From: a bacterium
GTDB lineage: Bacteria; Bacteroidota; Bacteroidia; CAILMK01; JACPUW01
Assembly (NCBI GenBank): GCA_016124515.1
Contig: WGNN01000063.1
Location: 1 to 32,178 of the forward strand
Length of the DNA stretch: 32,178 nucleotides
Direction: 5' to 3'
The notes beneath the pieces are model-generated. The model saw nothing but the letters and a program-made list of their open reading frames with translations, made no database searches and was not told the DNA's origin. This document shows, in pieces, positions 820 through 18,055 of this stretch (the stretch's first letter is position 1; every line of letters begins with the position of its first letter). The position numbers and the translations under genes were made by a program.

Positions 820-1758
820 CTATTCGGCATTTATTTTCATGTTCCAAAGGCTACCAAGATCCTTCTGCAAAAGTTCCGACAAATTTTGTACATTGCTGCG
901 AAATTCTTCTTTTAATCGGGCTTCAAGTTCGGGCGATAGTGGTTCTGCCGCCGTATTGGTTTTTTGGGCCAAATTACCGGCCAGCGATTTCACCGTTTTT
1001 TCTGATAAAGTTGACAAACCCGGAATGAAACCCAGATAGGGCTTTAGTTTTTTGAGAAATTTCTGGAAACGAAAAATATTCACTTTGGTGGCGGGCACGG
1101 TGCCGCCGCGGTTGTGCGCCGCCTCTATGTTGATGGCGTAATGTTCGGTAAGTTCCAGAAAATCAAACAATTTACGCAGTTCTTTTCGCGGATGCGCATT
1201 CAGCTCTTCCAACACCATTACATGCACTTTAAAGTGCTCCATAAACTGTTTGATGGGAGCGTAGTACAGTCCCATTTTTTTGTAGGCAATTATATCGCAG
1301 GGCACATAAGCTTCTTCAAGGCGTTGTGTTTCAAGTGCCAGGCCTTGCTCAAAACTTTGGTCTTCATAAAAATTGCGCCGCGCCATTTGGTAGGCCGAAT
1401 AAGCGCGCTTCACGGGGTTTCTTATTATAAAGACCACTTTTACTTGGCTGCCCAAATACTTTTTAATGTTTGCAATGGCCAGTTCGGGGAAAATCATGTA
1501 CAAGTTGCCAAAGTCGCCAATGGCCTTGTGTTGCTCAGTAGCCTTGCTGTATTGCGCCACAAAATCGGCCCATTGAAAAACGGATGTTTTGTTGTAGCCG
1601 AGGGTGTTCACCAGTTTTTCGCTGGCAAAAAACCGTGATTCTTTTTTTTCGGGAAGAAAAATCTGTGGATGGCCTTTTATGTATTCGTAGAGCGAAGTGC
1701 TGCCCGACTTGGCTGCGCCGGCCACTACAAAATTGGGAAGGTGGATTTCTGTGCTCAT
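820..1758 (-). CDS. PAPS-dependent sulfotransferase, NDST-like type
   Basis: A 312-residue cytosolic sulfotransferase that should move a sulfuryl group from PAPS to a hydroxyl or amine on a glycan. The 5'-phosphosulfate loop is at residues 13-22 (AGAAKSGSTS, Lys17). A candidate catalytic Glu lies in EKKESRFF near residue 40. The 3'-phosphate site is IIRNPVKRAYSAY, with Arg113 and Ser121. This layout resembles the heparan-sulfate N-sulfotransferase-like group of Sulfotransfer_1. The frame can be extended upstream to a TTG at 1764, but the ATG at 1758 is preferred: it overlaps the upstream stop by one base (TAATG) and gives the family-like start MSTEIHLPNFVVAGA. It is the third gene of a minus-strand operon, before the flippase. 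The acceptor is unknown. Confidence 0.9.
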   Translation of the reverse strand: MSTEIHLPNFVVAGAAKSGSTSLYEYIKGHPQIFLPEKKESRFFASEKLVNTLGYNKTSVFQWADFVAQYSKATEQHKAIGDFGNLYMIFPELAIANIKKYLGSQVKVVFIIRNPVKRAYSAYQMARRNFYEDQSFEQGLALETQRLEEAYVPCDIIAYKKMGLYYAPIKQFMEHFKVHVMVLEELNAHPRKELRKLFDFLELTEHYAINIEAAHNRGGTVPATKVNIFRFQKFLKKLKPYLGFIPGLSTLSEKTVKSLAGNLAQKTNTAAEPLSPELEARLKEEFRSNVQNLSELLQKDLGSLWNMKINAE

Positions 1759-2681
1759 TACCAATCGTCAGGGGTGTAAAAATGTGGCCAAATATCTGAT
1801 GTAAGCTCTTTTATGCGCTCAATTTCTTCGGTGCTCAACTTGTTTTTCCAGTAGCTTATGTTGGCTTTGCTGTTGCGTTGCATTTGTTCTTCGCTGCCGG
1901 TGGTGCCACCCGGATTGTCGCTGTCGCTGCTGTTTTTCACAAATTCGGCTACTTGCGGACTGTATTCCAGATTGAGTTGCTCAAACAGGTTTTTGAATTT
2001 TTCTGTTGGCTCCAACGACAAATCTTCGTGTTTGATGTATTGCCAGTCAGGGAATTTTAACATGTATTGGCGCACCGTGTGGTAAAAAAGGCGCCACACC
2101 AAACAGGCTTGCTCCACTATGGGCTTTTCTTCTTTGCTAAAGGCTTCTATTTGCGGGGCATAATCGCCCAAATAATCGTGTATGAGTTCTTTTTGCTGCC
2201 ACAAATGGCCAAAAGGAAATTTCCAGTCTTTACGCACCAGGCTGTAAACAAAGGCCGCCGGATGCCTGATGAGCACCACCACCTGCATGTTGAAATTTTG
2301 TGCCAGCCAAGGAGCCGAAAACAAGGCAATCGGGTCTTTCATCAGGGGCGTTGTTCCCTTGTTTTGGTTGAAAATTCGCAGGTATTTCAGCCACATTTTG
2401 GCTTTAAACAGGTTGTTGACACCGCCCAAACGACCCAATGCCTGGTAATTCCATTGAAGGGTTTTCTCAAAAAAGGCATGGTACTGCGCGTGGTTGTGTG
2501 CGCTTATATATAAGTACCAAATATCAATTGGGCTCTTGCGTGGCGTGGGATAAATGGGGTTCAATGGCTCGTGCATGTAGCCCAAATGTGGTACTTGGCT
2601 AAGCACCTGACCCACCCAGGTAGAACCCGAGCGATGCGATCCGGTAACCAGTACAGGCTTTATTTGCTTGTTTTCGTTCAT
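1758..2681 (-). CDS. Sulfotransferase family protein
   Basis: This 307-residue protein has the PAPS loop GSHRSGSTW at residues 14-22 followed by HEPLNP (Glu38). The segment LMKDPIALFSAPWL near 113-126 is typical of one sulfotransferase subgroup. The 3'-phosphate motif VVVLIRHPAAFVYSLVR contains Arg139 and Ser147. There is no signal peptide or membrane helix, so it should act in the cytosol on a nucleotide- or lipid-linked glycan before export. Its ATG overlaps the stop of the upstream sulfotransferase gene by one base (TAATG), and its own TAA overlaps the next ATG in the same way. It differs clearly in sequence from the neighbouring sulfotransferases, so it is not a recent tandem copy. The acceptor specificity cannot be predicted. 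Confidence 0.88.
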   Translation of the reverse strand: MNENKQIKPVLVTGSHRSGSTWVGQVLSQVPHLGYMHEPLNPIYPTPRKSPIDIWYLYISAHNHAQYHAFFEKTLQWNYQALGRLGGVNNLFKAKMWLKYLRIFNQNKGTTPLMKDPIALFSAPWLAQNFNMQVVVLIRHPAAFVYSLVRKDWKFPFGHLWQQKELIHDYLGDYAPQIEAFSKEEKPIVEQACLVWRLFYHTVRQYMLKFPDWQYIKHEDLSLEPTEKFKNLFEQLNLEYSPQVAEFVKNSSDSDNPGGTTGSEEQMQRNSKANISYWKNKLSTEEIERIKELTSDIWPHFYTPDDW

Positions 2682-3397
2682 TAATAGCTGTAGCCTAGCA
2701 GTTTTATTTCGCGTGCAAAAATGAGTGAAATCAGTTCTTTTTCTTCTTCGGTCAATACTTCGCGGTAATGTCTTTTGTCGCCGCGTCGTCCGCCTTTGGC
2801 TTTATACTCAGGCAGTTTCAGTGGTTTTGGCAGGGCAAGTTTTTCACTTATTTCCCTCAGGCTTTCGTTCATTTCTTCAAACTTATACACATGGTCCATA
2901 GCCGGCAGGTGGTTTAAGCTGTACATATCATAGCCCCTCAACCGTGCCACCTCGCCTGATTTCAGGTAGCCCATTACCGAGCCAAAAGCGTCATCGCCCC
3001 CGCGGGCAAAGTATTGCGAAAGCACCTTGTCAAACGGGTTTCGTTCAAAACAAAATTTGTAGTAGCTGTTCCAAATTGTGTCGCCCAGCAGCGCCTTGGC
3101 TTCCTGTGCCGGCATGTGGTTATAAAAGCTTTTTCTGGGTTTACCCAGCAGCATCCCCAGCCATTCATTTGGGAGGTGCCGGGCAAGGCCAAGTTTATAG
3201 TTTTGGGCTTGTCTGCCGGTAAGTGTGGCTCGTGCCGCTTCGTCATCGCGGTCAATGGGAGTTATTATATCGCTGTCGCCACAATATTCCGATAGGGCAA
3301 TCTCTAATGAGGTGCCGGCGGTTTTTCTGGTTTTTATGAAAATAAAACGGTGCTTGTGCGATACAATCATTGGCATAAGGCCCGCTAAGGGCTTCAT
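2681..3397 (-). CDS. Sulfotransferase, Sulfotransfer_2-like type
   Basis: A 238-residue protein with FIKTRKTAGTSLEIAL at residues 20-35, the 5'-phosphosulfate loop of the Sulfotransfer_2 group (carbohydrate 4-O/2-O sulfotransferase relatives). The 3'-phosphate segment YKFCFERNPFDKVLSQY has Arg119 and Ser127. The motif YNHMPAQEA around 92-100 is also characteristic. It is the first gene of the minus-strand operon. The ATG at 3397 gives the longest form. In-frame ATGs at 3376 and 3370 (MIVSHKHRFIFIKTRKTAG) are realistic alternatives, because relatives tend to begin just before this segment, and no Shine-Dalgarno sequence decides between them. It probably sulfates a glycan hydroxyl. It belongs to a different subtype from the other four sulfotransferases here. 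Confidence 0.85.
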   Translation of the reverse strand: MKPLAGLMPMIVSHKHRFIFIKTRKTAGTSLEIALSEYCGDSDIITPIDRDDEAARATLTGRQAQNYKLGLARHLPNEWLGMLLGKPRKSFYNHMPAQEAKALLGDTIWNSYYKFCFERNPFDKVLSQYFARGGDDAFGSVMGYLKSGEVARLRGYDMYSLNHLPAMDHVYKFEEMNESLREISEKLALPKPLKLPEYKAKGGRRGDKRHYREVLTEEEKELISLIFAREIKLLGYSY

Positions 3398-3528
3398 TTT
3401 CGGGTCACAATGTTAAGCACAAAATAGATTTTGGCGGTTCAATGCTTTTATTTTGCCGCTGCATTGCATGGTGCGGTGGCAAATAGCCCTTGCCAGCGCA
3501 GCAAATAAATTGTATAAAACCCATTTTG
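3398..3528. promoter_or_regulatory. Divergent intergenic region between two sulfotransferase operons
   Basis: The roughly 130 bases separate the first genes of the minus-strand and plus-strand sulfotransferase operons, so promoters for both directions should lie here. On the minus strand there is CTATTTTG at about 3422-3429, one base short of the Bacteroidota -7 consensus TAnnTTTG. No perfect -7 box was found in either direction. The exact right boundary depends on which TTG starts the plus-strand gene. Confidence 0.45.
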
Positions 3529-4368
3529 TTGGACCAAAAGCCACATACGCCACTGTTTATCACCGGCCATCCGCGCTCGGGCACTACCTTGTTGCGGCTC
3601 ATTTTCAATCAACATTCGCAGTTGGTAATACCTGATGAAACGGGTCTGCTGCACTGGTTTTTTAAACGCCCCTGGTACAAAAAATACACCCGCTCCAAAA
3701 TGCCCCTGCCATCGGCCAAGTCAAGGGCCTTTGGCGAAGACATCATTGAGCGGTTCAACCAACAGCCGCGTCAGTTGCGCAACCACCCGCAAAAAGCCAT
3801 TGAGTTTTTGTACCAAAGCCTGGCAAAACGCGAAGGAAAAAAATACTGGGGTGACAAAACGCCACTACACACGCAATTTACCGATCAGATATTTGAAATG
3901 TTTCCCAATGCTTTCATTATCAATTTGGTACGCGATCCACGCGCTGTTATTAGCTCGGCCAAAAGAAACCTGAAAAACAAAAGGGAAGGAACCGATTTTT
4001 GGATAACCGACGACCTGAACAAAACCATTGAAAGGTGGAGGTGGGAGTATGGCCTCATTAAAAAATACACCCAACAGTACCCGGCTCAATCGGTGCTGCT
4101 GCGCTACGAAGATTTTGTAGCCGAGCCCGAAAAACAACTCAAGGCACTTTGTACCAAAATGGGTTTGCCCTATGAACCTGCCATGCTCAACTACCACGAG
4201 GAGCGCAGGAAGAAGAAAGAGGAAATGACCGAATGGCACCGCGAAACAGCAAAACCCGTGAATGCCGGCAACATAGACAAGTGGCGCGATGAGCTGAGCG
4301 ATGAGGAGTTGCAGCAAATAGAAACTGCCCTGAGCAATGAAATGAAAGAAATGGGATACCTGCCATGA
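3529..4368 (+). CDS. Sulfotransferase, PRSGTT type (Sulfotransfer_3-like)
   Basis: This protein has 279 residues from the TTG at 3529. The 5'-phosphosulfate loop is GHPRSGTTLLR (residues 13-23), which resembles tyrosylprotein sulfotransferases and related bacterial enzymes. Further motifs are YWGDKTPLH near 106-114 and the 3'-phosphate segment NLVRDPRAVISSAKRN, with Arg135 and Ser142/143. No ATG precedes the PAPS loop in this frame. TTG codons at 3490, 3526 and 3529 are the only reasonable starts, and 3529 (MDQKPHTPLFITG) gives the usual short lead before the first strand. The stop overlaps the next ATG (ATGA), indicating an operon. A glycan is the likelier acceptor given the flippase and glycosyltransferase nearby, but a protein acceptor is not excluded. 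Confidence 0.85.
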   Translation: MDQKPHTPLFITGHPRSGTTLLRLIFNQHSQLVIPDETGLLHWFFKRPWYKKYTRSKMPLPSAKSRAFGEDIIERFNQQPRQLRNHPQKAIEFLYQSLAKREGKKYWGDKTPLHTQFTDQIFEMFPNAFIINLVRDPRAVISSAKRNLKNKREGTDFWITDDLNKTIERWRWEYGLIKKYTQQYPAQSVLLRYEDFVAEPEKQLKALCTKMGLPYEPAMLNYHEERRKKKEEMTEWHRETAKPVNAGNIDKWRDELSDEELQQIETALSNEMKEMGYLP

Positions 4369-5165
4369 ATACCTTGAAACAACTGGCTTTTTTGCCGCGA
4401 ATTATGAGTGCCTCTCTGCGCGGGCTGCCACAATTCATCATTATTGGTGCGCAAAAGGGCGGTTCAAGTGCCTTGTATAAATTTCTTTGCGAACACCCGC
4501 AGGTGCAGCGCGCTTTTGTGAAGGAGCCGCACTACTTCACCGGGCAGTTCCACCAAAAGTCACTCAAATGGTATAAGGCGCAGTTTCCGCTGAGCAAAAG
4601 CGGCATCATTACCGGCGAAGCGAGTCCTTCGTACTGTACGCATCCGCTGGCACCGCAACGTATCAAAAGCGTAGTGCCGCAAGCCAAACTTATATTCATC
4701 GTGCGCAATCCCGTAGAGCGTGCGGTTTCCAACTACTTCCACTCGGTGCGCTATGGGGTTGAGCCACTGCCCATAGAAGAAGCCATGCAGCGACCCGCCG
4801 AAATTTTTGAAGCGGAATATGCCAAAATGGAGCGTGAAGATGGCTACCACAGCAGCACCTACCACCGCCATGCCTACCTGCACAAGGGCTTGTATGCCTT
4901 TCACTTAAACAAATGGTACCAACATTTTGAGCCACAGCAAATACTCCTGCTCGAAAACGCTGAGTTGCTCAACCAACCGCAAAAGGTTTATAATGAAGTG
5001 CTGCAATTTTTGCAACTTGAGGCATTTGCACCCGCTGCGTTCAGCAAACACAATGTGGGAAGCACCAAACCGGTTGACGAATCGCTTACCCGGCAGTTGA
5101 AACAAGTGTTTGAAGAGCCCAACCGACAGTTTTTCCATCTTATTTCCCGCGAATTTCCCTGGTAG
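4365..5165 (+). CDS. PAPS-dependent sulfotransferase, NDST-like type
   Basis: A 266-residue protein with the PAPS loop IIGAQKGGSSALYKFL (Lys31) and KEPHYF, with Glu54 in the position of the catalytic acid/base of heparan-sulfate sulfotransferases. GEASPSY is at about 84-90 and the 3'-phosphate motif IFIVRNPVERAVSNYFH has Arg114 and Ser122. The order and spacing match the N-deacetylase/N-sulfotransferase-like branch of Sulfotransfer_1. It is the same broad subtype as the gene at 820-1758, but the two sequences are well diverged. The ATG overlaps the upstream TGA by four bases. An internal Met14 could be an alternative start, but the overlap favours the first. The gene is followed after three bases by the glycosyltransferase. 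Confidence 0.9.
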   Translation: MNTLKQLAFLPRIMSASLRGLPQFIIIGAQKGGSSALYKFLCEHPQVQRAFVKEPHYFTGQFHQKSLKWYKAQFPLSKSGIITGEASPSYCTHPLAPQRIKSVVPQAKLIFIVRNPVERAVSNYFHSVRYGVEPLPIEEAMQRPAEIFEAEYAKMEREDGYHSSTYHRHAYLHKGLYAFHLNKWYQHFEPQQILLLENAELLNQPQKVYNEVLQFLQLEAFAPAAFSKHNVGSTKPVDESLTRQLKQVFEEPNRQFFHLISREFPW

Positions 5166-5168
5166 ATT

Positions 5169-6368
5169 TTGGAACCCGTTTACAAGAAAATACCGCCCCT
5201 GAAGTCTCTGCGCGAGTGGCTCGTGTACCAACTGCTGCGTCTGGCCGATTGGTGGTTGACCGCAGGAATAAAACCCGAAAAAACATCAGAAAAATGGCTC
5301 TTGGTGGTCAAGCTCGATCTGCTTGGCGACTATGTGCTGTACCGCAACTTTTTGGCAGCCATAAAAAACCAAGCAGAATACAAGGATCATAAATTGCTCT
5401 TTTGCTGCAACCAAGCGGTTCTTGAATTGTCGCAGTCGCTTGATGATGAAGTGGTTGATGAATGGTTGCCGCTAAAGTTGAAACCATTTGTGAGCCAATG
5501 GAAGTACCGCAGAAAAATATGGCAACAGTTGCTGAGTAAAAGGTACGAACGGGCCATTTTTCCTACCCAAAGCCGCTCCTTTTTTTATGACGATATGTTG
5601 GCAAAAACCATAACAGCGCAAGAAATTGTAGCACCCGCGGGCAACAGCTACAACCGCACCGCCTGGCAACACCGCATGGCCAAAAACTACTACCACTTGC
5701 TGCCGGTTGACAACCACTACGAATTTGAATTTGAGCTGAACCGCCGGTTCATGGATAAATGCTTACATACCAATTTGGACATCCAATGGCCAAGCATAGC
5801 GATTTCCGCTGAACGCAAGGCCCACCGTGTGTTGTTTGCCCCCGGCGCATCCGCAGAATTCCGGCGTTGGTCAACCGACAATTTTATTGCCCTGGCAAGG
5901 CACATATTGCAAAAACAGCCTCAGGCAGAAATAATAATTAGCGGCGCGCCCGCCGAAAACCACTTGGGCGAAGCCATTAAGGCTGCTTTTGCTCATGACA
6001 AGCGCGTGCAAAATGCCTGTGGCAAACAGAAGCTCAGCGAGTTGGTTTATACCCTTGCGGCCACCCGCTTGGTGGTAAGCAACGAGAGTGGTTTGGTGCA
6101 TTTGGCCCAAGCCTTGGCGGTGCCTTTTATCTATTGCATTTCAAATGGCAACCACTATTGCCGGTTCAATCCCTACCACAGGCAGCATCCTGCCGTCAGC
6201 ATCAGTTATTTTTATCCGCCTGTTTTTGAGCAAATGGTGCAAAACGACCAAATGGCCACCAAAATGAAGTATTATTGGGGCTCAAGACTATCCATAGAAT
6301 CGGTAGAAGTGGCGGCCTTAAGCGCTGAATTTGATGCCCATGCCGCGCAAATTTTTAAGGCAGATTAA
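5169..6368 (+). CDS. Glycosyltransferase family 9 (heptosyltransferase-like)
   Basis: A 399-residue cytoplasmic GT-B type protein. WLLVVKLDLLGDYVLYRNFL at about 43-62 matches the GT9 N-terminal pattern, with the conserved Gly53-Asp54. FAPGASAEFRRW near 223-234 and VVSNESGLVHLAQAL at 302-316 are the C-terminal nucleotide-sugar half; GT9 enzymes usually have D(S/T)GPxHLA at the second motif. Family members add heptose or other sugars to lipopolysaccharide or surface glycans. It starts at a TTG only three bases after the sulfotransferase stop; the next candidate in frame is a GTG at 5223. Its position links it to the sulfated-glycan pathway. The sugar transferred cannot be assigned, and the divergent NES replacing D(S/T)G argues against naming it WaaF or WaaC. 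Confidence 0.8.
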   Translation: MEPVYKKIPPLKSLREWLVYQLLRLADWWLTAGIKPEKTSEKWLLVVKLDLLGDYVLYRNFLAAIKNQAEYKDHKLLFCCNQAVLELSQSLDDEVVDEWLPLKLKPFVSQWKYRRKIWQQLLSKRYERAIFPTQSRSFFYDDMLAKTITAQEIVAPAGNSYNRTAWQHRMAKNYYHLLPVDNHYEFEFELNRRFMDKCLHTNLDIQWPSIAISAERKAHRVLFAPGASAEFRRWSTDNFIALARHILQKQPQAEIIISGAPAENHLGEAIKAAFAHDKRVQNACGKQKLSELVYTLAATRLVVSNESGLVHLAQALAVPFIYCISNGNHYCRFNPYHRQHPAVSISYFYPPVFEQMVQNDQMATKMKYYWGSRLSIESVEVAALSAEFDAHAAQIFKAD

Positions 6369-6497: not shown

Positions 6498-7754
6498 ATG
6501 AAAAGAAAACACTGGATATTGCTCACTGTAGTTGTAGCATTGATACTTACAGTTTGGCGTTTCAACTCATCAACCAAAAGCGAGGGTATCAACCTGAGCA
6601 CCAAGGTGCAGCGGGGTTTGTTTGTGTCAGAAGTTGTTACCTCGGGCGAGCTGGAAGCCAAAAACTCGGTGCGTATCTATGGCCCGCGCGAAATAAGGAA
6701 TTACCGCATCAACGAAGTGAAAATTCAGGATTTGATACCCGAAGGAACCTTGGTAGAAAAAGGCGGCTATGTAGGAAAACTGGACCCTAGTCAGCTGAGC
6801 AATGCGCGCAAAGATGTAGAGAATGAATACGAAAAAACCGAAAGCCAATATTTGCAAACCAAGCTCGATACGGCCATTGATTTGCGGGCCAAGCGCGATG
6901 AACTCAAAAACCTGAAATTTGCCCTTGAAGAGCGCGAAATAGAAGTAAAGTACAGCGAGTTTGAACCCCCGGCGGTGCAGCGGCAAGCCCAAATAAACCT
7001 TGAAAAAGCACAGCGCGCCTACAAAAATGCGGTAGAATCTTATGGGCTCAAACAAAAGCAATCCATTGCCAAAGTGCGCGAGGTGGGCGCTTCGTTGGCC
7101 ATACAAAAAGCCAACCTCGACAACCTTGAAGAACTCATGCGCGAGTTCACCATTATTGCCCCGCAGGATGGCATGCTCATTTATGCCAAAGACTGGGGCG
7201 GACAAAAGAAAAAAGTGGGTTCAACCATCAGCGCATGGAACCCCATTATTGCCGAGCTGCCCGATATGAGCATTATGGTGAGCAAAACCTTTATCAACGA
7301 AATAGACATTAGCAAAATAGAAAAGGGCATGAAAGTGCTGGTAGGCATTGATGCTTTTCCCGACAAGGAACTACAGGGCGAGGTAACCTATGTGGCCAAT
7401 GTGGGCGAAGACCGCGCAAGCATGAACGGTAAGGCCTTTGAGGTAACCATACAACTCACAGGCACCGATTCGCTCACCCGCCCGGGAATGACCACAAGCA
7501 ACCGCATACAGATTTTTCAGGAAGACAATGTGTTGTTTATTCCGCTTGAAGCCGTCAACAGCGAAGAAGGGGTGTTTTTCGTTTACCTGAAAAACGGAAT
7601 TTCCACTACCAAACAAGAAGTAAAATTGGGCCGCTCCAACGACAATGAAGTTATTGTTTTGGCCGGTCTCAACGAAAACGACGAAGTGCTCTTGGTGCAG
7701 CCCGAAGGCATGGAAGAAAAACCCATTGTTCGTTTAGAAAACAGCTTGCAATAA
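6498..7754 (+). CDS. MacA/HlyD-family periplasmic adaptor of an ABC exporter
   Basis: A 418-residue adaptor with one N-terminal membrane anchor (residues 5-21). Two lipoyl-like halves (about 60-96 and 217-255) flank a long coiled-coil hairpin (about 97-217, rich in Glu, Lys and Gln). A beta-barrel and membrane-proximal domain then runs to the end. In MacAB-TolC systems the adaptor bridges the inner-membrane permease and the outer-membrane channel. ATG 6498 is the only sensible start. The gene is about 130 bases after the glycosyltransferase, so it probably has its own promoter. Its TAA overlaps the permease ATG by one base. The fold assignment is secure; the exported substrate is unknown. Confidence 0.9.
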   Translation: MKRKHWILLTVVVALILTVWRFNSSTKSEGINLSTKVQRGLFVSEVVTSGELEAKNSVRIYGPREIRNYRINEVKIQDLIPEGTLVEKGGYVGKLDPSQLSNARKDVENEYEKTESQYLQTKLDTAIDLRAKRDELKNLKFALEEREIEVKYSEFEPPAVQRQAQINLEKAQRAYKNAVESYGLKQKQSIAKVREVGASLAIQKANLDNLEELMREFTIIAPQDGMLIYAKDWGGQKKKVGSTISAWNPIIAELPDMSIMVSKTFINEIDISKIEKGMKVLVGIDAFPDKELQGEVTYVANVGEDRASMNGKAFEVTIQLTGTDSLTRPGMTTSNRIQIFQEDNVLFIPLEAVNSEEGVFFVYLKNGISTTKQEVKLGRSNDNEVIVLAGLNENDEVLLVQPEGMEEKPIVRLENSLQ

Positions 7755-9085
7755 TGAACAGAGAGCGGTTATTATTGAATTTTAATATTGCCTCCGATGC
7801 GGTTCTGGGCAATTTGTTCCGCTCGGTGCTTACTGCCTTGGGTATTATTTTTGGCGTGGCGGCTGTAATAGCCATGATGGCCATAGGCAAAGGCGCACAA
7901 CAGGAAATTCTGGACCAATTGAAAATGGTGGGGGTAAATAATATAGAAATAAAGGCCGTAGTGGAAGAAACAGAAGGCGGCGACGAAAACAGCGAAGAAG
8001 CTGAAAGTACCTCAAAAAAGCGCTACAGCCCCGGTTTGTCGCTCAACGATGTGGCAGCTATAATAAAAGTGGTGCCCGAAGTGGCGCATGTGTGCCCCGA
8101 AGCGAGCCTGAAACCCAATGCCATTTATAAAGATGTGCAAAAAAGCATCAACCTTATTGGTACCGAAATGCAGTTTTTCGACATATTTCACTTCAATATA
8201 AAAAAGGGAAACGGCTTTAACCAAAAGCAAATGAGCTACGGTTTGCCGGTGTGTATAATAGGAAAAAATGTGGAAGCCTTGCTTTTCAGGGGCGAGAATG
8301 CCTTGGGAAAGTATATGAAATGTGGCAACCACTGGCTGAAAGTAATAGGTGTAATAGAAAAAATAGGAGTAAACGAAAGTGCGGCCAAAAGTGCCAATAT
8401 CAGGGATTATAATAATGATGTGTATATTCCCATCAACACGTTTTTGTCGCGCTACAAAGACCACGGAACCGACGCCACTATGGAGTCGGATGGTGGTATG
8501 ACGGTTTATACCTCCGGAAGCAAAGCCAAAAGTTACCACGACCTGGACCGCATAATAGTGCAGATGCGCGAACCCGAACAATTGACGCAAGGCGGTTCGC
8601 TGCTGGAGAAAATGCTGCTGCGAAGACATAATGAAGTGCCTGATTTTGAAATTGTTATTCCTGAGTTGCTACTCAAACAACAGCAGCGCTCCAAAGATAT
8701 TTTCAACTGGGTGTTGCTCAGCATTGCCTTTATTTCGCTTTTGGTAGGCGGCATTGGTATTATGAACATCATGCTCGCCTCGGTTTTTGAGCGGATTAAG
8801 GAAATTGGCATACGCATGTCAATGGGCGCCACCCAGGGCGATATCATCATGCAGTTTTTGCTCGAAGCCGTTATTATAAGTTTAACCGGTGGTTTTATCG
8901 GTATATTTTTAGGTGTTATTATTTCTTTTGTTATCACCTTGGTTACCGACATACAAACCCTTATTTCATGGGGTTCGGTGGTGGTTTCATTTGTAGTTTC
9001 GGCAGGTGTGGGGCTCATTTTTGGTATTATGCCCGCGCGAAAAGCCGCCCTTCAAGATCCTATTACTTCACTCAGGTATGAATAA
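7754..9085 (+). CDS. MacB/FtsX-type ABC transporter permease
   Basis: A 443-residue permease with the MacB layout: a first helix at about 22-45, a large periplasmic domain (about 46-315), then three helices at about 317-342, 366-397 and 405-427. Between the first two of these is the FtsX loop ERIKEIGIRMSMGAT, which contacts the ATPase. The end ARKAALQDPITSLRYE is also typical. There is no nucleotide-binding domain, Walker A or ABC signature, so an ATPase must be supplied in trans. An acidic stretch at about 71-88 (EETEGGDENSEEAEST) sits at the start of the periplasmic domain and is unusually charged. The start overlaps the adaptor stop (TAATG). Confidence 0.92.
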   Translation: MNRERLLLNFNIASDAVLGNLFRSVLTALGIIFGVAAVIAMMAIGKGAQQEILDQLKMVGVNNIEIKAVVEETEGGDENSEEAESTSKKRYSPGLSLNDVAAIIKVVPEVAHVCPEASLKPNAIYKDVQKSINLIGTEMQFFDIFHFNIKKGNGFNQKQMSYGLPVCIIGKNVEALLFRGENALGKYMKCGNHWLKVIGVIEKIGVNESAAKSANIRDYNNDVYIPINTFLSRYKDHGTDATMESDGGMTVYTSGSKAKSYHDLDRIIVQMREPEQLTQGGSLLEKMLLRRHNEVPDFEIVIPELLLKQQQRSKDIFNWVLLSIAFISLLVGGIGIMNIMLASVFERIKEIGIRMSMGATQGDIIMQFLLEAVIISLTGGFIGIFLGVIISFVITLVTDIQTLISWGSVVVSFVVSAGVGLIFGIMPARKAALQDPITSLRYE

Positions 9086-9097
9086 AAAAGCGATGAT

Positions 9098-10543
9098 ATG
9101 AAAAATATAGTATTGGTGTTTATTACCTTTTTGCCCGGCCTTTTGGGCGCACAAAACATATTGGATTTGCAAACAGTGGTTGAAAATGCCAAGGCCAACT
9201 CGCCCGACGCAGCGGCTGCAAAAACGCGCTTTGAAAACAGCGATTGGACTTTTAAATCGTACAAAGCCAATTTTTTGCCTGCGGTGAGTTTGAGTTCTAC
9301 TTTGCCCAACTACAACAGCAGTATTACCGCTTACGACCAAGACGATGGAACGCAGAAATTTATCAGACGCCAATTGTCCACCTCGCTTGCCAACCTTACC
9401 GTAAACCAAAATATAGGCCTTACCGGTGGCAGCGTTTCATTGAGTACGGGTTTGCAGCGCATCGATGTATTTGGGCCCAATTCATCTACAAGTTTTCTCT
9501 CTACGCCTATTAGTATTGGCTTCAACCAAAAATTATTCGGCTTCAATCAATTCAAATGGCAGCGCCAAACCGAGCCGCTGAAATATAATGAAGCACAGCA
9601 CCGCTATTATGAAGACATGGAGGCGGTGGCCATAAAGGCAGTGAACCTGTATTTTGATTATTATGACGCAAAAATTGCCTTTGAATTGGCCAAACTCAAC
9701 CTGGCAAACAGCGATACTTTGTACAAAATATCGAAAGGTCGCTACCAATTGGGCAAAATAGCCGAGCACCAATTGCTGCAAATGGAACTGAATGTGCTGA
9801 ATGCCCAAAAATCGCTGCGACAAGCGCGTATTGACCTGAGCAACGCCCTGGCACAAATACAAAACTATACCGGGCTGCAACTAACCAAAGACCTCGATTT
9901 GATTCCACCTGTAATGACCGACACCTTTTCGGTAGATAAAAACAAAGCCCTGCAAATGGCCTTGAAATACCGTGCCGATGTGATGAATATGCAGCGGCAA
10001 TTGGTTGAAGCTGAGCAAAGTATGGCGCAAGCAAGAGTAAACGCCGGCCCCAATATTACCCTGCGCGCCATGTATGGTTTGTCGGGCAGTAATGCTAAAG
10101 TCGGCAACTCCTACACAAGTACGTTGCCGCAACAACAGTTTCAGGCAGGTTTTACTGTACCGGTAACCAACTGGGGCAAGGGCAGGGCACAGATAAAAAT
10201 AGCCGAAAGCAACCTGTACCTCACCAAATTGCAGGTAGAAAACCAACAGCTCAATTTCAAGCAAGAGGTAATTAATCAGGTAAACCAATTCAATTTTAGA
10301 AAACGCGAATATGTGATAGCTGCAAAAAGCGACACCATAGGCCAAAAACAATATGAAATAGCCTACAAACGCTATAAAATTGGGAAAATTGATATTACCG
10401 ATTTGAACATAGCCTTGCAGGGAAAAGACCAGGCACGACGCACCCACATTAGAGCGATGCGCAACTATTGGGTCGATTTTTACCGACTCAGGCAACTGAC
10501 ACTCTACGATTTTGAAAACGGCTTGCCGCTAATTGCAGAATAG
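9098..10543 (+). CDS. TolC-like outer-membrane efflux protein
   Basis: This 481-residue protein begins with a clear signal peptide (MKNIVLVFITFLPGLLGAQN, cleavage near residue 18-19). Two OEP-type halves follow, with long alpha-helical stretches such as KSLRQARIDLSNALAQIQNYTG and EAEQSMAQARVN, interleaved with strands of the barrel. This is the outer-membrane channel that partners the upstream adaptor and permease. The gap of 12 bases from the permease stop makes one operon. The coding sequence ends at 10543 and is followed by a weak hairpin with a T-run, where the transcript may stop. Confidence 0.92.
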   Translation: MKNIVLVFITFLPGLLGAQNILDLQTVVENAKANSPDAAAAKTRFENSDWTFKSYKANFLPAVSLSSTLPNYNSSITAYDQDDGTQKFIRRQLSTSLANLTVNQNIGLTGGSVSLSTGLQRIDVFGPNSSTSFLSTPISIGFNQKLFGFNQFKWQRQTEPLKYNEAQHRYYEDMEAVAIKAVNLYFDYYDAKIAFELAKLNLANSDTLYKISKGRYQLGKIAEHQLLQMELNVLNAQKSLRQARIDLSNALAQIQNYTGLQLTKDLDLIPPVMTDTFSVDKNKALQMALKYRADVMNMQRQLVEAEQSMAQARVNAGPNITLRAMYGLSGSNAKVGNSYTSTLPQQQFQAGFTVPVTNWGKGRAQIKIAESNLYLTKLQVENQQLNFKQEVINQVNQFNFRKREYVIAAKSDTIGQKQYEIAYKRYKIGKIDITDLNIALQGKDQARRTHIRAMRNYWVDFYRLRQLTLYDFENGLPLIAE

Positions 10544-11106: not shown

Positions 11107-11188
11107 ATTTAGTTCGATAATTAATTGCATCAGACTAATTACCCAGTAAACAATTTTCACTAAAAAGCAAGTTGTTTGGAATATTTAG

Positions 11189-11196
11189 TAAATTTG
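11189..11196 (+). promoter_or_regulatory. Bacteroidota-type -7 promoter box (TAAATTTG)
   Basis: TAAATTTG is a perfect match to the TAnnTTTG -7 consensus. It ends 21 bases before the ATG at 11218, a normal distance for a short leader. No TTG was found at the usual -33 spacing; TTTG at 11175-11178 is too close. It would drive the two lipoprotein genes and perhaps the receptor. Confidence 0.45.
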
Positions 11197-11217
11197 TTTG
11201 AATCAAATGTTGTTGTA

Positions 11218-12576
11218 ATGAATAAAATTTTAAGCTTCTTACTTCTTGTTATCTTTCTAATTTCGTCATGTACTAAAGTTGTAACCAATGAAAATGATGA
11301 ACAGATTCAGCAAGCACCTATGAGTGCGGGATATATTGCTAATGGGTGGACAACAGATGTAGATGTGCAAATAGAGTGGGTTGCAAAGGGTATGACGCAT
11401 TATGTGCAAAATCGCTCTTTTGTAAATGTGGTTCATACAATAGCAGAAGGTAACGATTTTGAACAGGCTAAAATGCAGGAAATTGAAGATCAATATTATG
11501 GCATTTCTGGTATATCGTTTCAATTGTCACATAACGATTCGGTACAAACAAATTTTACCCCAAATTCTTACAACTTCACTTTCCTACCTGCCTTTGTATT
11601 AGGAGCTATGGCTTTTATCAATCATATTTATATTCCAGAAGTTACAACTGTTGATTCAACGTTACCTCAATTAATTGTCCCATTGCGTGTATGGGAAATA
11701 AGGCAGCAAAATGATGTTACAGGTTTTTTTATTGACACGACTGGTTCAATTGATTCGGTAAAGATATCTGGCGAAGATCCTCCGGTAGATCAGTATTATA
11801 TATGGGTGATTGGGTATGATACAGATCCTGCGTTTGTTGACACTACCAGGGAATTTCCCGAAGGCATTAGTTCATGTGGGGATAGTATTTGTGATAAATT
11901 TAGACATGAAGATGATTCTACACATACAAATTATTGTCCGGGGGATTGTCCGGATTCCAATGCCGTATATAATTATCATGTTATTGTTGAATCAATACAG
12001 ATTTATAGAGATGAATCTCAGTACTTTGAGTCATGGTTAAACGGTAAATATGAAATGACATGCAAGGGAGCTACCATTCGTGATTCTACTGTTTTGGATT
12101 ATTTTGGTGATGTAGAGGATGAGTTCAACCTGTTACTGGATAAGATAAAGAGAAAGAATGTTTGCAGGGTTTCTACTTTTGGCCATGAGAGAGGATGTCC
12201 TGGAGCCTTGGTAACTGTTAATAAGGAAATATTCAATTATTTTAATCCACTAACTGATAGTTTGTTTTTTGTTGTTTATGAGCAAAACAAAAAATCAAGA
12301 AATAGAATAACATTTAGGTTACCTGGGAAAAGTGCTAATAATTACCCGAAAACCATCGGGGGTGTAACAGTTCCATGGCCTCAGTTTCCTTGTTGGTTCG
12401 TTAGGAACGAGTCTGGTTTTAATCCATATTATACGTTTATTAGTAATAACGTATATTATGTGCCGCAGGAGTCCTATGGAACTATGATTCCAGGAACTAA
12501 TTTTTTATCAAATAATTTAATTCACATTCTAAACAATGGCGAGTATGAAGTAGTATTAAGATTGGTGAAAGAATGA
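11218..12576 (+). CDS. Lipoprotein of unknown function with a Cys-rich motif
   Basis: This 452-residue protein has a signal peptide ending in a lipobox (LISSC, lipidated Cys18). I do not recognise the family. It is predicted to be mostly beta-strand. Near residues 220-244 it carries CGDSIC...CPGDC (Cys220, 225, 240 and 244), resembling the short 'CGDGxCxxxE...NCPxDC' motif found in many secreted proteins. Two further Cys-containing stretches follow (KNVCRV and ERGCPG). The frame extends upstream to a TTG at 11176, but ATG 11218 places the signal peptide correctly. It is followed by a second lipoprotein (ATGA overlap) and a TonB-dependent receptor. It has neither SusD nor DUF4249 features, so its role as a surface ligand binder is inference only. 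Confidence 0.75.
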   Translation: MNKILSFLLLVIFLISSCTKVVTNENDEQIQQAPMSAGYIANGWTTDVDVQIEWVAKGMTHYVQNRSFVNVVHTIAEGNDFEQAKMQEIEDQYYGISGISFQLSHNDSVQTNFTPNSYNFTFLPAFVLGAMAFINHIYIPEVTTVDSTLPQLIVPLRVWEIRQQNDVTGFFIDTTGSIDSVKISGEDPPVDQYYIWVIGYDTDPAFVDTTREFPEGISSCGDSICDKFRHEDDSTHTNYCPGDCPDSNAVYNYHVIVESIQIYRDESQYFESWLNGKYEMTCKGATIRDSTVLDYFGDVEDEFNLLLDKIKRKNVCRVSTFGHERGCPGALVTVNKEIFNYFNPLTDSLFFVVYEQNKKSRNRITFRLPGKSANNYPKTIGGVTVPWPQFPCWFVRNESGFNPYYTFISNNVYYVPQESYGTMIPGTNFLSNNLIHILNNGEYEVVLRLVKE

Positions 12577-13451
12577 AACTCAAAATTGGCATAACAATAA
12601 TTAGTGTATTAATTTTAACGTTCATTGAGATGTCATGCACAACATCTCAGTCAATTCGGAATGTGGCATCTCATTATTTTGTGGATCAATTTTTTTACGT
12701 GAAAGATGAACATATTCTTAGGTCTGATATTGTGATTTGGCTTGGTAACCCCGTAGATTCTCTTGTAGTTCCTGATAAATTATTTCAAGATGAGACATTT
12801 AATCAGCCATTGAGTTTATCTCTTGCTAAATCGAGTTGTTTGTTAAAATGTCAGGATGATGTATTTAGCTACAAGATCAATCAATATCAGAATAAACTAC
12901 AATTAAAGAATTCTGATACTCCTTTATTCAATAATCATTCATTTTTGCAAATGATGATTGATGGTAAGCAGGTGTCGGATACAATAGTGCCATTTGAATT
13001 TACTGTAAATGGTTTAGATACTATTTTGACTAAAAATAATTCAATTTATGATATTGTAGCAACTGTAAACGTTAGTGAAGATGATTTATATTATTTGTCG
13101 TATGTTAATACCGGGTATAGCTTCAACGACCAAAATGTCGTTTATAAGGTTCCATTTGTTCCTCTTTCAAAGGGTGAAAATAAATTGTCTAAAAGAAGTT
13201 ATTTTAATCAAATGTACCTAAGTGATTCAAATTCACTTAGTGAGAAGGAAATTGAGTGGAATCACAAATATATTAATAATTTAGTTGAAAATGACCATGT
13301 GGGATTAACCGATAAAAATAATTTCATCATGGCAAACAAGATGAAAAGTGTATATGAGAAAAGAAATAATCCATTCCTGATACCTTATAATGAGTTTGAT
13401 CCAAATGTGAGCTTTATTATTAGTAAAAGAGTTTATTATAAATTGTTTTGA
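12573..13451 (+). CDS. Probable lipoprotein of unknown function
   Basis: A 292-residue protein with a hydrophobic N-terminus ending IEMSC (Cys22). The lipobox is imperfect but fits Bacteroidota lipoproteins. The rest is soluble and rich in Asn, Ser and Asp, with no recognised domain. A pair of cysteines (SSCLLKC, about residues 86-90) could form a disulfide or bind a metal. The ATG overlaps the stop of the upstream lipoprotein gene by four bases, so they form one transcript. The receptor gene starts about 50 bases downstream. The two lipoproteins and the receptor probably act together at the outer membrane, but nothing in the sequence identifies a substrate. Confidence 0.7.
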   Translation: MKLKIGITIISVLILTFIEMSCTTSQSIRNVASHYFVDQFFYVKDEHILRSDIVIWLGNPVDSLVVPDKLFQDETFNQPLSLSLAKSSCLLKCQDDVFSYKINQYQNKLQLKNSDTPLFNNHSFLQMMIDGKQVSDTIVPFEFTVNGLDTILTKNNSIYDIVATVNVSEDDLYYLSYVNTGYSFNDQNVVYKVPFVPLSKGENKLSKRSYFNQMYLSDSNSLSEKEIEWNHKYINNLVENDHVGLTDKNNFIMANKMKSVYEKRNNPFLIPYNEFDPNVSFIISKRVYYKLF

Positions 13452-13500
13452 ATTTTATATGATGTTAACATAATTAATTGTGGTTGCTTTTAATAAGTAT

Positions 13501-15717
13501 ATGAATATCTTGAGTGCAAAGGTGATTTTGCTGTATTTTCTGTTCGCTCATAATTTAATTTTCGGGAAGAGCATTTTGATTCTTGATAACACTACTAAAA
13601 ATCCAATCTACCATTGTGAAATTATTATTGACCATCGTTCCACAGGCATTTTTAGCGCTGAAGATGGTAGAGTAAATATTGAAGTTGGCGATGAAAATAA
13701 AAATATCGAATTTTTTGCGCTTGGCTATGATATATTAAAGTTAAATTCAGATGTATTGGATACAATTAACATTATTTTCCTTGAGCCATTGGCTTATAAC
13801 TTGAGGGATGTGATAATTACAGATTCCCTGCAAATGCCAATTCAAATGCGAGAAGGAGCTATTCTTTTAAATGCCATGAGCTTGTCTAAGTTACCAATGG
13901 TTTTTGCTGAGCCGGATCTTTTAAAAAGTTTACAGTTACTTTCTGGCGTAAGTAGTGTTATGGAAAACAATGTAGGGTTGTATTTGAGAGGAGGTAGAGC
14001 AGAACAAACTCTAATTAGTATTGATGGAGCTACAGTTTACAATCCGGCACATTCTGTAGGTTTGTTTTCAGTTGTACACCCATCTTCTGTTAATTTTGCT
14101 TTACTTTACAAAGGAGGTATACCGGCTCATTTTGGTGGAAGAGCTTCTGGATTTTTGGATATTAAATTGAAAGAAGGGAGTTATAAGGACTTTAGAGGAG
14201 CTTTTAGTTTAGGTGTGGTAAGTTCATATCTTGATTTACAAGGCCCAATATTACAAGGGAAGCATCCTGTTAGTTTTCAGTTTGTGGGACGAACAACCTA
14301 CATTGATAAAATTGTAAAAGTAATGAGTTCGAAAGAGCCTGAATTTAATACTGGGTTTAGTGATTTTAGTATGAAGATTTCTTCAATAATTTCAACTGAA
14401 AAAAGACTAAGTTTGGCATATTATCACAGTAATGATCATTATAAATATGAAAATAGTAATTTCATTTATTTTGGAAATGAATCCAAATGGAATAATGATG
14501 TAATTGGCTTAAATTTTAGATGCCGGAACAGTGATAAATGGTTGAAATTATTGTCAGCTACATTTACAAATTATCGATTATCTAATATATTGTCTAATAC
14601 TCAGCTTCAATCGGGTATTTATGATTTTGGACTAAATTATAGCGTTAAATCATCTAGCATAGCACGTGCCGTTCAAGAAATTGGAGTGCAAAGTGTTCTT
14701 CATAAGATTTCACCAGGAAAACTTCAGGTTGTAGGAGCTAATGTTATTAGTGATATTGTGTATGATATTCCAGAACAACAGTTTTTAGAAGTAGCACCTT
14801 TTTTTATTATGCGCAAAGAAATTGGAATGGATTTGGAATTGATGGCTAATTTTAGAATGGGGACATATTTGGCTAGTTCGATTCAATCTGTGCAGCCGGA
14901 GCCAAGAATTACATTGACCAAAAATTATGATAAATCAAAGGTTTACATTTGTTATGATAGGTTGTCTCAATTTATGCAACTATACTCATCGAATGTTACG
15001 TTAATGCCTACGGATTTTTGGTTTATGAGTTCAAAATCAATCAAGCCGACTACATCAAATTCATTATCATTAACTTATCATAAAGGAGGGCTTTCTGATA
15101 AATGTAATATCGAGACATCAGTTTATTATCGAGTATTTAACCATATTACTGATATAAGGCCTGGTGGTAGTTCTATTGCTACACCTGAATTTGAAAAATG
15201 GTTGGAAGTCGGTGTAAACCATTCTTATGGCATTGAGTTTATGATACAGAAAATAAAGGGTAAGTTAACTGGTTGGTTGTCTTATACATATAGCCGATCT
15301 ATAAATAGTATCCCCGGAATATTGTCGAATGGTTCGAAGTATAGTGCTAACTATGATAAACCGCACCTTTTCAATGTGGTTGCTAAAAAGCATTTTGGGA
15401 AATGGGAGTTTAATGGAGTGTTCGTTTTTCAAAGTGGTCGTCCAATAACAAAACCACTATATTCAATAGGAATTATTAACTTATACTCAGATCGTAACGA
15501 ATATAGGTTGCCGAGCTACCATAGACTGGATATATCGCTTATTCATTATCAAAAAAGGCATAAACATTTTCAAGCGTCTTGGATGCTGAGTATATATAAT
15601 GTATATAATCACCACAATGTTTACAATATTCAATATAATCCCTTAAAAGGTAGGGTTGAGAAAATCACCGTATTCCCCATCCTTCCATTTATTAGCTATA
15701 AGGTAGATGTTTTTTAA
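13501..15717 (+). CDS. TonB-dependent receptor with N-terminal carboxypeptidase-like domain
   Basis: The protein has 738 residues from the ATG at 13501, which gives a signal peptide ending near residue 23; seven more codons are open upstream. Residues about 24-104 form a carboxypeptidase-regulatory-like domain (DNTTKNPIYHCEIIID, FALGYDI). The plug follows at about 112-222 with LRGGRAEQTLISIDGATVYNPAH, then a 22-strand-type barrel ending in an aromatic residue (YKVDVF), as outer-membrane barrels need. Such receptors import substrates through the outer membrane using TonB energy. It is shorter than SusC proteins (about 1000 residues), closer to receptors paired with small lipoproteins, and no susD follows. 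Substrate unknown. Codons are strongly A/T-biased. Confidence 0.88.
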   Translation: MNILSAKVILLYFLFAHNLIFGKSILILDNTTKNPIYHCEIIIDHRSTGIFSAEDGRVNIEVGDENKNIEFFALGYDILKLNSDVLDTINIIFLEPLAYNLRDVIITDSLQMPIQMREGAILLNAMSLSKLPMVFAEPDLLKSLQLLSGVSSVMENNVGLYLRGGRAEQTLISIDGATVYNPAHSVGLFSVVHPSSVNFALLYKGGIPAHFGGRASGFLDIKLKEGSYKDFRGAFSLGVVSSYLDLQGPILQGKHPVSFQFVGRTTYIDKIVKVMSSKEPEFNTGFSDFSMKISSIISTEKRLSLAYYHSNDHYKYENSNFIYFGNESKWNNDVIGLNFRCRNSDKWLKLLSATFTNYRLSNILSNTQLQSGIYDFGLNYSVKSSSIARAVQEIGVQSVLHKISPGKLQVVGANVISDIVYDIPEQQFLEVAPFFIMRKEIGMDLELMANFRMGTYLASSIQSVQPEPRITLTKNYDKSKVYICYDRLSQFMQLYSSNVTLMPTDFWFMSSKSIKPTTSNSLSLTYHKGGLSDKCNIETSVYYRVFNHITDIRPGGSSIATPEFEKWLEVGVNHSYGIEFMIQKIKGKLTGWLSYTYSRSINSIPGILSNGSKYSANYDKPHLFNVVAKKHFGKWEFNGVFVFQSGRPITKPLYSIGIINLYSDRNEYRLPSYHRLDISLIHYQKRHKHFQASWMLSIYNVYNHHNVYNIQYNPLKGRVEKITVFPILPFISYKVDVF

Positions 15718-16426: not shown

Positions 16427-18055
16427 ATGAAGTCAGCTTATTTTACCCTAATCATCATACTGTGGGGCGCAGCATTTGCCAAGGCTCAGTTACAGCAAAC
16501 GCTGTTGCATGAATTCAACACCGACGATACGGTGAGCATCAGCTGCAATGGAGCCAAAAGGCTGCAATATGCTCATCTTGAAGTATATACAACCGACAAT
16601 GGCCAATGGAACGGAGCTAAAAAACCACTTTGCTACGAACTGGCAAAAAGCAATGGTCTTTTCGGTAATTGGGCCATAAGTCTCAACGACAGCCTGAGCG
16701 ACAAGTTTATTTTTATTAGTGATACAGCCCTTAATATTCCACTGCAAAAAGATTCGGTTTACCAACTCAATGATTATTCGTGGCGCAAAAACTGCCGTGT
16801 GAGAGACTATGTGGTCATGATGCTTGTGGAGCGTTTTGATACCACCCAACGCGGTTATGTGGTTGATACAGTGAATTTAACCGGGCTGAACAGCTATTGC
16901 CTGTGCGGAAATAAATACAGCGGAAAAATAATAAGTATAGTGATGGGTATTAAACCTTATGATATTAGTTTGGGCGCTTATGCATTGGGTTCGTATGCCT
17001 CATATATACAGCGCAATGTGGCCGTAATTTTCGATACGGTATCGGCGGTTCGCGGTGCTGATACCTTTTACATGGTTGACATTCCGGCTTATGATTTTGC
17101 CCAAAATAATATTGTATTCAGCAATAGAGATACCAACAAATTCAGTACTGAGCTACAAATAATAGAAGCGGTTCCGCGTGATAACCCTTCGCGGCGGGTA
17201 AGCATCAATTTCATAGCGCATGGCGGGGTGTTTTTTCAACCCTATACCGCCTTAAAGGGGAGTGTTTTTGATACAGTAACAGGGCAGCGACACCGCATGC
17301 AAATAACTCTTGATGGGGGCAATTTGTGTGTGTGGCCTTATGCCGAACTCGTAATTGACGACGATAATATTTTGAAATACCAAAGCGGCAATATTGCACT
17401 CAATGGCAAAAATGCCTGCACCATGCTGCGCGATCGCGGCAAATTGGTGTTGGGTGCCAACAGCCACCTTTCGTATGGCTCGCCTAAACAAGGAATTTTG
17501 GGCCTTAAACCGGGTGCAACCATTGAGTTTGAGCAAGGTGCCGGTCTCACTATCAACAACATGCTGCTGCTAAGCGATTATTGGGAAGCACCCAATGGCG
17601 GCGAAATAGACATATACCTTTACCAAGGCAACCAATTGATTTTCAACGAAGGAGCGTTTGTGAGCAACGGCCCATTTGCCCCCGGTTCGGTCACGCTCAA
17701 CATCCACCTGAAAGGCGGTCTGCTTGATATGCAACACCTTGACGAACAGAGCAAATCGCTCATTAATGTGGTTGAATATGCCTTGTATCAACCAATTGGC
17801 AATTTGCAGTTGTACCCAAACCCCACCAATGGCATGCTCTACGGAAGCTTCAGCAGCGAAGCAGGGGCGGCAATTACCTGGCAACTTTTCAGCCTCAACG
17901 GGCGACAAGTTATGAGCGGAAACCTAAGCGGCAACAGCCTCAACCACCAAATGGCCATTGATATGAGCCATTTGTTCGCCGGGGTTTACCAATTGGTGCT
18001 TCAAAATGGCAAAGAGCGCATCAATAGAAAAGTGGTATTGAGCAATCAATTGTAA
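16427..18055 (+). CDS. Secreted protein with C-terminal type IX secretion sorting domain (type A)
   Basis: A 542-residue protein with a signal peptide (MKSAYFTLIIILWGAAFAKAQ, cleavage near residue 20) and a C-terminal Por-type sorting domain at about 456-542. That domain begins LQLYPNPTNGMLYGSF and contains FSLNGRQV and LFAGVYQLVL. These are the signals for Sec export followed by T9SS transport across the outer membrane. The central 430 residues have no recognised enzyme motif; they look beta-rich, with repeated hydrophobic strands and Gly/Asn turns (for example SHLSYGSPKQGILGLKPGATIEF), reminiscent of a right-handed beta-helix. It could be a surface-attached structural or binding protein. 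It converges on pfkA with a single base between the two stop codons. Confidence 0.85.
   Translation: MKSAYFTLIIILWGAAFAKAQLQQTLLHEFNTDDTVSISCNGAKRLQYAHLEVYTTDNGQWNGAKKPLCYELAKSNGLFGNWAISLNDSLSDKFIFISDTALNIPLQKDSVYQLNDYSWRKNCRVRDYVVMMLVERFDTTQRGYVVDTVNLTGLNSYCLCGNKYSGKIISIVMGIKPYDISLGAYALGSYASYIQRNVAVIFDTVSAVRGADTFYMVDIPAYDFAQNNIVFSNRDTNKFSTELQIIEAVPRDNPSRRVSINFIAHGGVFFQPYTALKGSVFDTVTGQRHRMQITLDGGNLCVWPYAELVIDDDNILKYQSGNIALNGKNACTMLRDRGKLVLGANSHLSYGSPKQGILGLKPGATIEFEQGAGLTINNMLLLSDYWEAPNGGEIDIYLYQGNQLIFNEGAFVSNGPFAPGSVTLNIHLKGGLLDMQHLDEQSKSLINVVEYALYQPIGNLQLYPNPTNGMLYGSFSSEAGAAITWQLFSLNGRQVMSGNLSGNSLNHQMAIDMSHLFAGVYQLVLQNGKERINRKVVLSNQL

Follow-up and report, generated by a model that had tools for sequence, protein, structure and literature searches.

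Background

Among described bacterial loci, the xss cluster of Synechocystis (synechan, PMC8205485) comes close to the one reported here, a run of five contiguous sulfotransferase (ST) genes, named ST1 to ST5, on contig WGNN01000063.1 of the Bacteroidota assembly GCA_016124515.1. The likeness lies in STs of distinct subfamilies within a Wzx/Wzy exopolysaccharide cluster; however, according to the accessible part of that paper, xss is cyanobacterial and holds two STs and eight glycosyltransferases (GTs), whereas our locus, from a member of the Bacteroidota, has five contiguous STs and one GT in view. Capsule clusters of Vibrio sp. KMM 8419 (PMC11641403) and Cobetia marina KMM 1449 (PMC11766843) combine STs with polysaccharide export genes and genes for the synthesis of 3'-phosphoadenosine 5'-phosphosulfate (PAPS), namely cysC, cysN and cysD in the former and cysN/cysC, cysD and cysQ in the latter. 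As far as the available excerpts of these papers describe them, they are ABC-transporter capsules, and Vibrio has three STs in separate regions; here, in contrast, PAPS genes are known only from relatives, in two of which (genomes G001 and G002) they lie beside wza. The accessible text on the Wzx/Wzy cluster wps-1 of Actinoplanes missouriensis (PMC13390465) describes STs of different families, one of them heparan-sulfate-ST-like; this cluster differs in belonging to an actinomycete and having two STs, and sulfate is unproven in it, as here. ST5 also resembles, in predicted fold and in sequence, the heparan-sulfate 3-O-sulfotransferases and NDST. These are enzymes of the animal Golgi.

Bacterial sulfated polysaccharides are still called exclusive to cyanobacteria in passages of two papers (PMC8205485, PMC13390465), a view contradicted by the Vibrio and Cobetia capsule work (PMC11641403, PMC11766843), and a review, in its accessible part, counts six producing genera (PMC11625862). 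A Shark Bay survey reports, by its own BLAST criteria and in the text available, no ST in any Bacteroidetes metagenome-assembled genome of its set (PMC9723792), and the makers of the sulfated matrix of granular sludge are described as unclear in the excerpts at hand (PMC10483923, PMC7356697). In our literature search, which covered few subscription papers and some texts only in part, we found neither a Bacteroidota sulfated-polysaccharide locus nor five contiguous STs.

The window that we analyzed is one whole contig (G000:C71, 32,178 bp) of a draft assembly, G000, which comprises 156 contigs and is 82% complete; nothing to the left of the window can therefore be read.

Five distinct sulfotransferases in one array

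We consider it probable that the five distinct ST-family proteins sulfate one lipid-linked oligosaccharide at different positions, before a flippase exports it as a sulfated surface glycan. The locus is real rather than artefactual, exceeds its sampled peers, and represents an ST-rich variant of bacterial sulfated-glycan loci known in outline.

An earlier note, made from the DNA alone, had described five adjacent ST frames, three on the minus strand leading toward a flippase and two on the plus strand leading toward a GT9 enzyme, each with both PAPS-binding motifs. Open reading frames (at least 80 amino acids (aa) long) and Pfam matches confirm this arrangement. All five proteins exceed the curated cut-off for one or more ST families: ST1 and ST5 against PF00685 (52.3 and 72.6 bits; cut-off 22), ST2 and ST4 against PF13469 (41.9 and 134.3 bits; cut-off 27) and ST3 against PF03567 (32.3 bits; cut-off 22). 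The 5'-phosphosulfate loops, in the order ST1 to ST5, read GAAKSGST, GSHRSGST, KTRKTAGTS, GHPRSGTT and GAQKGGSS, and the 3'-phosphate motifs RNPVKRAYS, RHPAAFVYS, RNPFDKVLS, RDPRAVISS and RNPVERAVS. A pattern search caught all of them but the ST3 loop, which was read by eye; five of the nine positions of this loop (K, K, T, A and S) are invariant among 39 aligned sequences (in the alignment and the model, which omit the first codon, ST3 residue numbers run one behind those of the complete sequence).

The array thus comprises several distinct enzymes rather than copies: in BLAST comparisons among the five (E up to 1e-3), only ST1 aligns with ST5 (28.6%) and ST2 with ST4 (24.5%, over 102 residues). 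Tandem duplication is ruled out by the weakness of these two alignments and by the best in-genome partner of ST5, which lies on another contig. As the five are not recent copies, they may well differ in acceptor position.

Two of the five proteins, ST3 and ST5, were modeled, and a sulfotransferase fold is predicted for both. The fold closest to the ST5 model is heparan-sulfate 3-O-ST/NDST-like, with a sequence match as well, and ST5 falls into this fold group by closest fold and by the position of its catalytic glutamate; a family missing from the fold-match lists is not thereby excluded. ST4 has tyrosylprotein sulfotransferases (TPST) as its nearest solved sequences (E 1.2e-13), while no sequence in the PDB matches ST2 at E 1e-3. 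The true start of ST4 is perhaps about 12 codons downstream, since close full-length homologues are 277-282 aa long.

The genes form two divergent, tightly packed sets, ST3-ST2-ST1-flippase and ST4-ST5-GT9 (Table 1). Adjacent ST frames within a set share 1 to 7 bases, the flippase start codon abuts the ST1 stop codon, and 3 bp separate ST5 from GT9. Because of the overlaps, and because 92 bp part the two sets, each is probably one operon. Base composition gives no sign of a foreign island: GC content is 45-50% in the ST genes, which resemble GT9 and macA in this respect, and 43% in the contig.

Table 1. Features of the sulfotransferase locus and its flanks (window coordinates)
Feature	Position	Strand	Evidence
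Wzx-like flippase, N-terminal 273 aa, cut by contig end	1..819	-	No Pfam match on fragment; 46% identical homologue in G002:C219
ST1, Sulfotransfer_1/3	820..1764	-	Pfam; closest solved sequence 3rnl (bacterial ST), E 2.3e-29
ST2, Sulfotransfer_3/1	1758..2681	-	Pfam; 46% identity to ST overlapping flippase gene in G002:C219
ST3, Sulfotransfer_2	2681..3397	-	Pfam; predicted sulfotransferase fold
Divergent intergenic region, 92 bp, between both ST gene sets	3398..3489
ST4, Sulfotransfer_3	3490..4368	+	Pfam; closest solved sequences TPST and CurM ST; G001 orthologue precedes GT9
ST5, Sulfotransfer_1	4365..5165	+	Pfam; predicted heparan-sulfate 3-O-ST/NDST-like fold; catalytic Glu position kept (E85)
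GT9-family glycosyltransferase	5169..6368	+	PF01075, 68.7 bits; 45% identical in G001
MacA-like adaptor, MacB-like permease without ATPase domain, OEP outer-membrane protein	6498..10543	+	Conserved downstream of ST4-GT9 in G001

Glycan setting and comparison with relatives

The assignment of the GT9 gene is borne out by Pfam, and a glycan setting is likely. The claim of a Wzx-type flippase stood in part: a 495-aa homologue in G002 (same family) resembles PF01943, although at 19.5 bits it remains below the cut-off of 28.2, and the fragment itself has no match at E 1e-3. In ST-bearing genomes, 6 of the 20 homologues of the window flippase (the window's own included) lie within 5 kb of an ST, versus about 0.2 expected. 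Four loci (L111, L113, L114 and L118) were viewed, with annotation for L111 and L114. In three annotated loci of relatives (G002:C676, G033:C29 and G010:C67), STs occur with initiating sugar transferases, flippases, GTs, epimerases or aminotransferases.

We surveyed 40 genomes, G000 itself and 39 relatives, 28 of which represent one per family at class level. Three Pfam searches (E up to 1e-3) yielded 117 ST places in 24 of the genomes, a few of them below the curated cut-off and some maybe pieces of one gene: 12 in G000, 11 in G002, 10 in G012 and six or fewer in each of the others. With gaps of at most 300 bases, the only run above two STs is the present one. When gaps of up to 4.5 kb are allowed, four STs are found in each of G002:C676, G012:C17 and G033:C29, and three in G023:C61. 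That five in a row is far more than usual, as the earlier note had it, thus holds for uninterrupted runs but not for looser groupings, and with four STs in three relatives the locus appears as the extreme of a recurrent pattern.

The order ST-ST-unknown-unknown-ST-ST beside a flippase recurs in two families (L027 7060-13591 in G002:C676; L028 6349-12876 in G033:C29). The intervening proteins of 440-489 aa have no Pfam match above cut-off; for both of those in G002:C676 and one of the two in G033:C29, a search relaxed to E 1 still gave nothing above cut-off. A second adjacent ST pair, 32% identical, is present in G000 itself (L018 5043-7176, contig C142).

At the corresponding site of G001 (same genus, 100% complete), the order is ST4-GT9-MacA-MacB-OEP, with identities to the window proteins of 56, 45, 63, 60 and 58%, respectively. 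None of the other four STs is found at this site, and the G001 genome has no flippase match. In G002, the flippase homologue is overlapped by the ST2-like gene (Table 1). Kept in these relatives, ST2-flippase and ST4-GT9 are therefore conserved pairs; in the window, ST1 sits within the first and ST5 within the second. Homologues of ST3, ST4 and ST5 were also searched in a large protein set. Among the best 12-13 of 120 matches per list, the longest contigs bearing these homologues (55-77% identical) are equally long in eight cases, one of them common to all three STs, which strongly suggests, without proving, that they are the same contigs.

Sulfate activation

As the earlier note had remarked, cysDNC is absent from the window. 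Across the sampled genomes, however, a strong adenosine 5'-phosphosulfate (APS) kinase match (E below 1e-50) occurs in 22 of 24 ST-bearing genomes versus none of 16 ST-free ones (Fisher p 2.4e-9), and the PF03567 search adds no further ST-bearing genome. The two ST-bearing genomes without one are incomplete, G000 at 82% and G029 at 84%. Among genomes at least 90% complete the counts are 21/21 and 0/14, and with one genome per family 15/16 and 0/12. Weak matches, which are partial and mostly in frames of about 440-515 aa, were left out of the main count; including them turns G004, G013 and G028 positive (3/16 ST-free genomes, p 3.9e-6). CysD lies within 300 bp of 21 of the 23 APS kinase genes; CysD (E up to 1e-20) unaccompanied by a strong APS kinase is confined to G016 and G032. 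Since APS kinase, usually with adjacent CysD, tracks ST presence almost perfectly, these data suggest that the sampled genomes activate sulfate for sulfation and not for assimilation.

APS kinase and CysD are both present in the closest relatives, G001 and G002. In G001 (contig C30), cysC-cysD-cysN is divergent to cysQ-wza-wzc; past wzc come a regulator-like gene (below cut-off) and a nucleotide-sugar dehydrogenase that narrowly misses the TviB cut-off; in G002 (contig C277), APS kinase and Wza matches are 1 kb apart. The sole Wza-family match of G000 is in a frame of 783 aa, which does not resemble that of G001 (283 aa). With cysC, cysD and a G001-like Wza all unmatched in G000, the cysC/cysD-wza region is probably missing from this assembly.

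Proposed mechanism and alternatives

With five ST genes adjoining a likely sugar-lipid flippase and a GT, we predict a surface sugar chain bearing several sulfates. Gene families, gene order and co-occurrence were observed directly; the acceptor, the division of labor and the polymer would, judging from the sequences, be as follows. CysD/CysN and CysC would activate sulfate to PAPS, supplied by a cysC-cysD-cysN operon, and CysQ would clear the 3'-phosphoadenosine 5'-phosphate left, with genes such as those that G001 encodes beside wza-wzc. Several position-specific STs would move sulfate from PAPS onto the growing lipid-linked oligosaccharide in the cytoplasm, to which GT9 may add a sugar. The Wzx-like flippase would then carry the sulfated oligosaccharide across the inner membrane, and the product may be exported as a capsule, exopolysaccharide, O-antigen-like chain or lipo-oligosaccharide.

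Several observations weigh against this proposal. The flippase is seen only in part (273 residues on the contig) and below the Pfam cut-off; next to the five STs we found a single GT but no Wzy, no Wza and no sugar-nucleotide gene. Fourteen of the 20 flippase homologues have no ST within 20 kb, and the ST pair of C142 adjoins hydrolase, acyltransferase, PMT_2 and Asp/Asn hydroxylase genes, no clear glycan locus. The 82%-complete G000 assembly has no APS kinase or CysD match anywhere, and proximity of APS kinase genes to STs is near chance in the sample (0/23 within 10 kb, 0.56 expected; 2/23 within 20 kb, 1.1 expected). The fold scores of the ST3 model are modest, none of the five receives a specific name from NCBIfam, and lipids, peptides and small molecules are also substrates of sulfotransferase families. 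Finally, the array is not a genus trait, since G001, the sole same-genus genome sampled, has only ST4-GT9 at the corresponding site and no flippase match.

Alternatively, the STs may serve different products, ST3-ST2-ST1 acting on the flippase-exported glycan and ST4-ST5-GT9 making a separate sulfated glycolipid or small molecule that leaves via the MacAB-OEP pump. The divergent transcription of the two sets is consistent with this, as are the retention of the ST4-GT9-MacA-MacB-OEP block in G001 without a flippase and the affinities of ST4 (TPST and CurM-type STs) and ST5 (heparan-sulfate STs). However, the recurrence on equally long contigs of homologues of ST3, from one arm, and of ST4 and ST5, from the other, ties the arms together, and with 129 bp between GT9 and macA the pump may be a mere neighbor; we regard two products as rather unlikely. 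Any contribution of the MacA, MacB and OEP genes to the glycan would be hypothetical.

If acquired ST genes had accumulated in a variable glycan locus of this one lineage, with only some of them active or acting together, this would account for the absence of the array from G001, for the interposition of ST1 between two genes whose G002 counterparts overlap directly, and for the dissimilarity of the five. Yet all five frames are intact and tightly packed with their motifs kept, and the homologues of ST3, ST4 and ST5 share equally long contigs in other lineages, which makes such an origin distinctly improbable. It is very unlikely that ST4 sulfates a tyrosine of a secreted peptide leaving through the adjacent channel, as in raxSTAB: the TPST affinity of ST4 and the adjoining adaptor, permease and outer-membrane genes do recall that system as the accessible part of PMC4216712 describes it, but the permease has MacB_PCD and FtsX only, with neither the C39 peptidase domain of the raxSTAB ABC exporter nor an ATPase domain, a GT9 gene separates the ST from the pump, and the four other STs would be left unexplained.

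Other features of the window

The MacB-like permease (7754-9085) carries MacB_PCD and FtsX without an ATPase domain, and no ABC ATPase matched among the scanned window proteins. For three low-GC frames (29-35%, in a contig of 43%) at 11176-15717, Pfam gives nothing above cut-off; the last of them has a sub-threshold TonB plug match. Proteins with type IX secretion C-terminal domains (Por_Secre_tail, CHU_C) are encoded at 16427-18055 and 28221-31001. These domains, together with a best named phosphofructokinase match of 74% ('Bacteroidetes bacterium isolate HKST-UBA117'), agree with the Bacteroidota host that had been proposed.

Significance

The predicted trait, several sulfates on a surface sugar chain, has so far been documented in only a few bacteria. 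With ST matches in 24 of 40 genomes, Bacteroidota by their named matches, this phylum is worth searching for sulfated-glycan producers, and the almost perfect tracking of STs by APS kinase suggests a simple genome test for them. ST5 would be a bacterial relative of heparan-sulfate enzymes employed in glycan engineering. A bolder version of our proposal, which we hold to be speculative and improbable, is a glycosaminoglycan-like surface polymer, sulfated both heavily and variably, that a Bacteroidota lineage makes with its own position-specific STs, among them one resembling heparan-sulfate 3-O-STs and one resembling 2-O/6-O-STs. If true, such a polymer would parallel, in bacteria, the heparan-sulfate code of animals, and it could be where the sulfated glycosaminoglycan-like matrix reported in sludge granules comes from.

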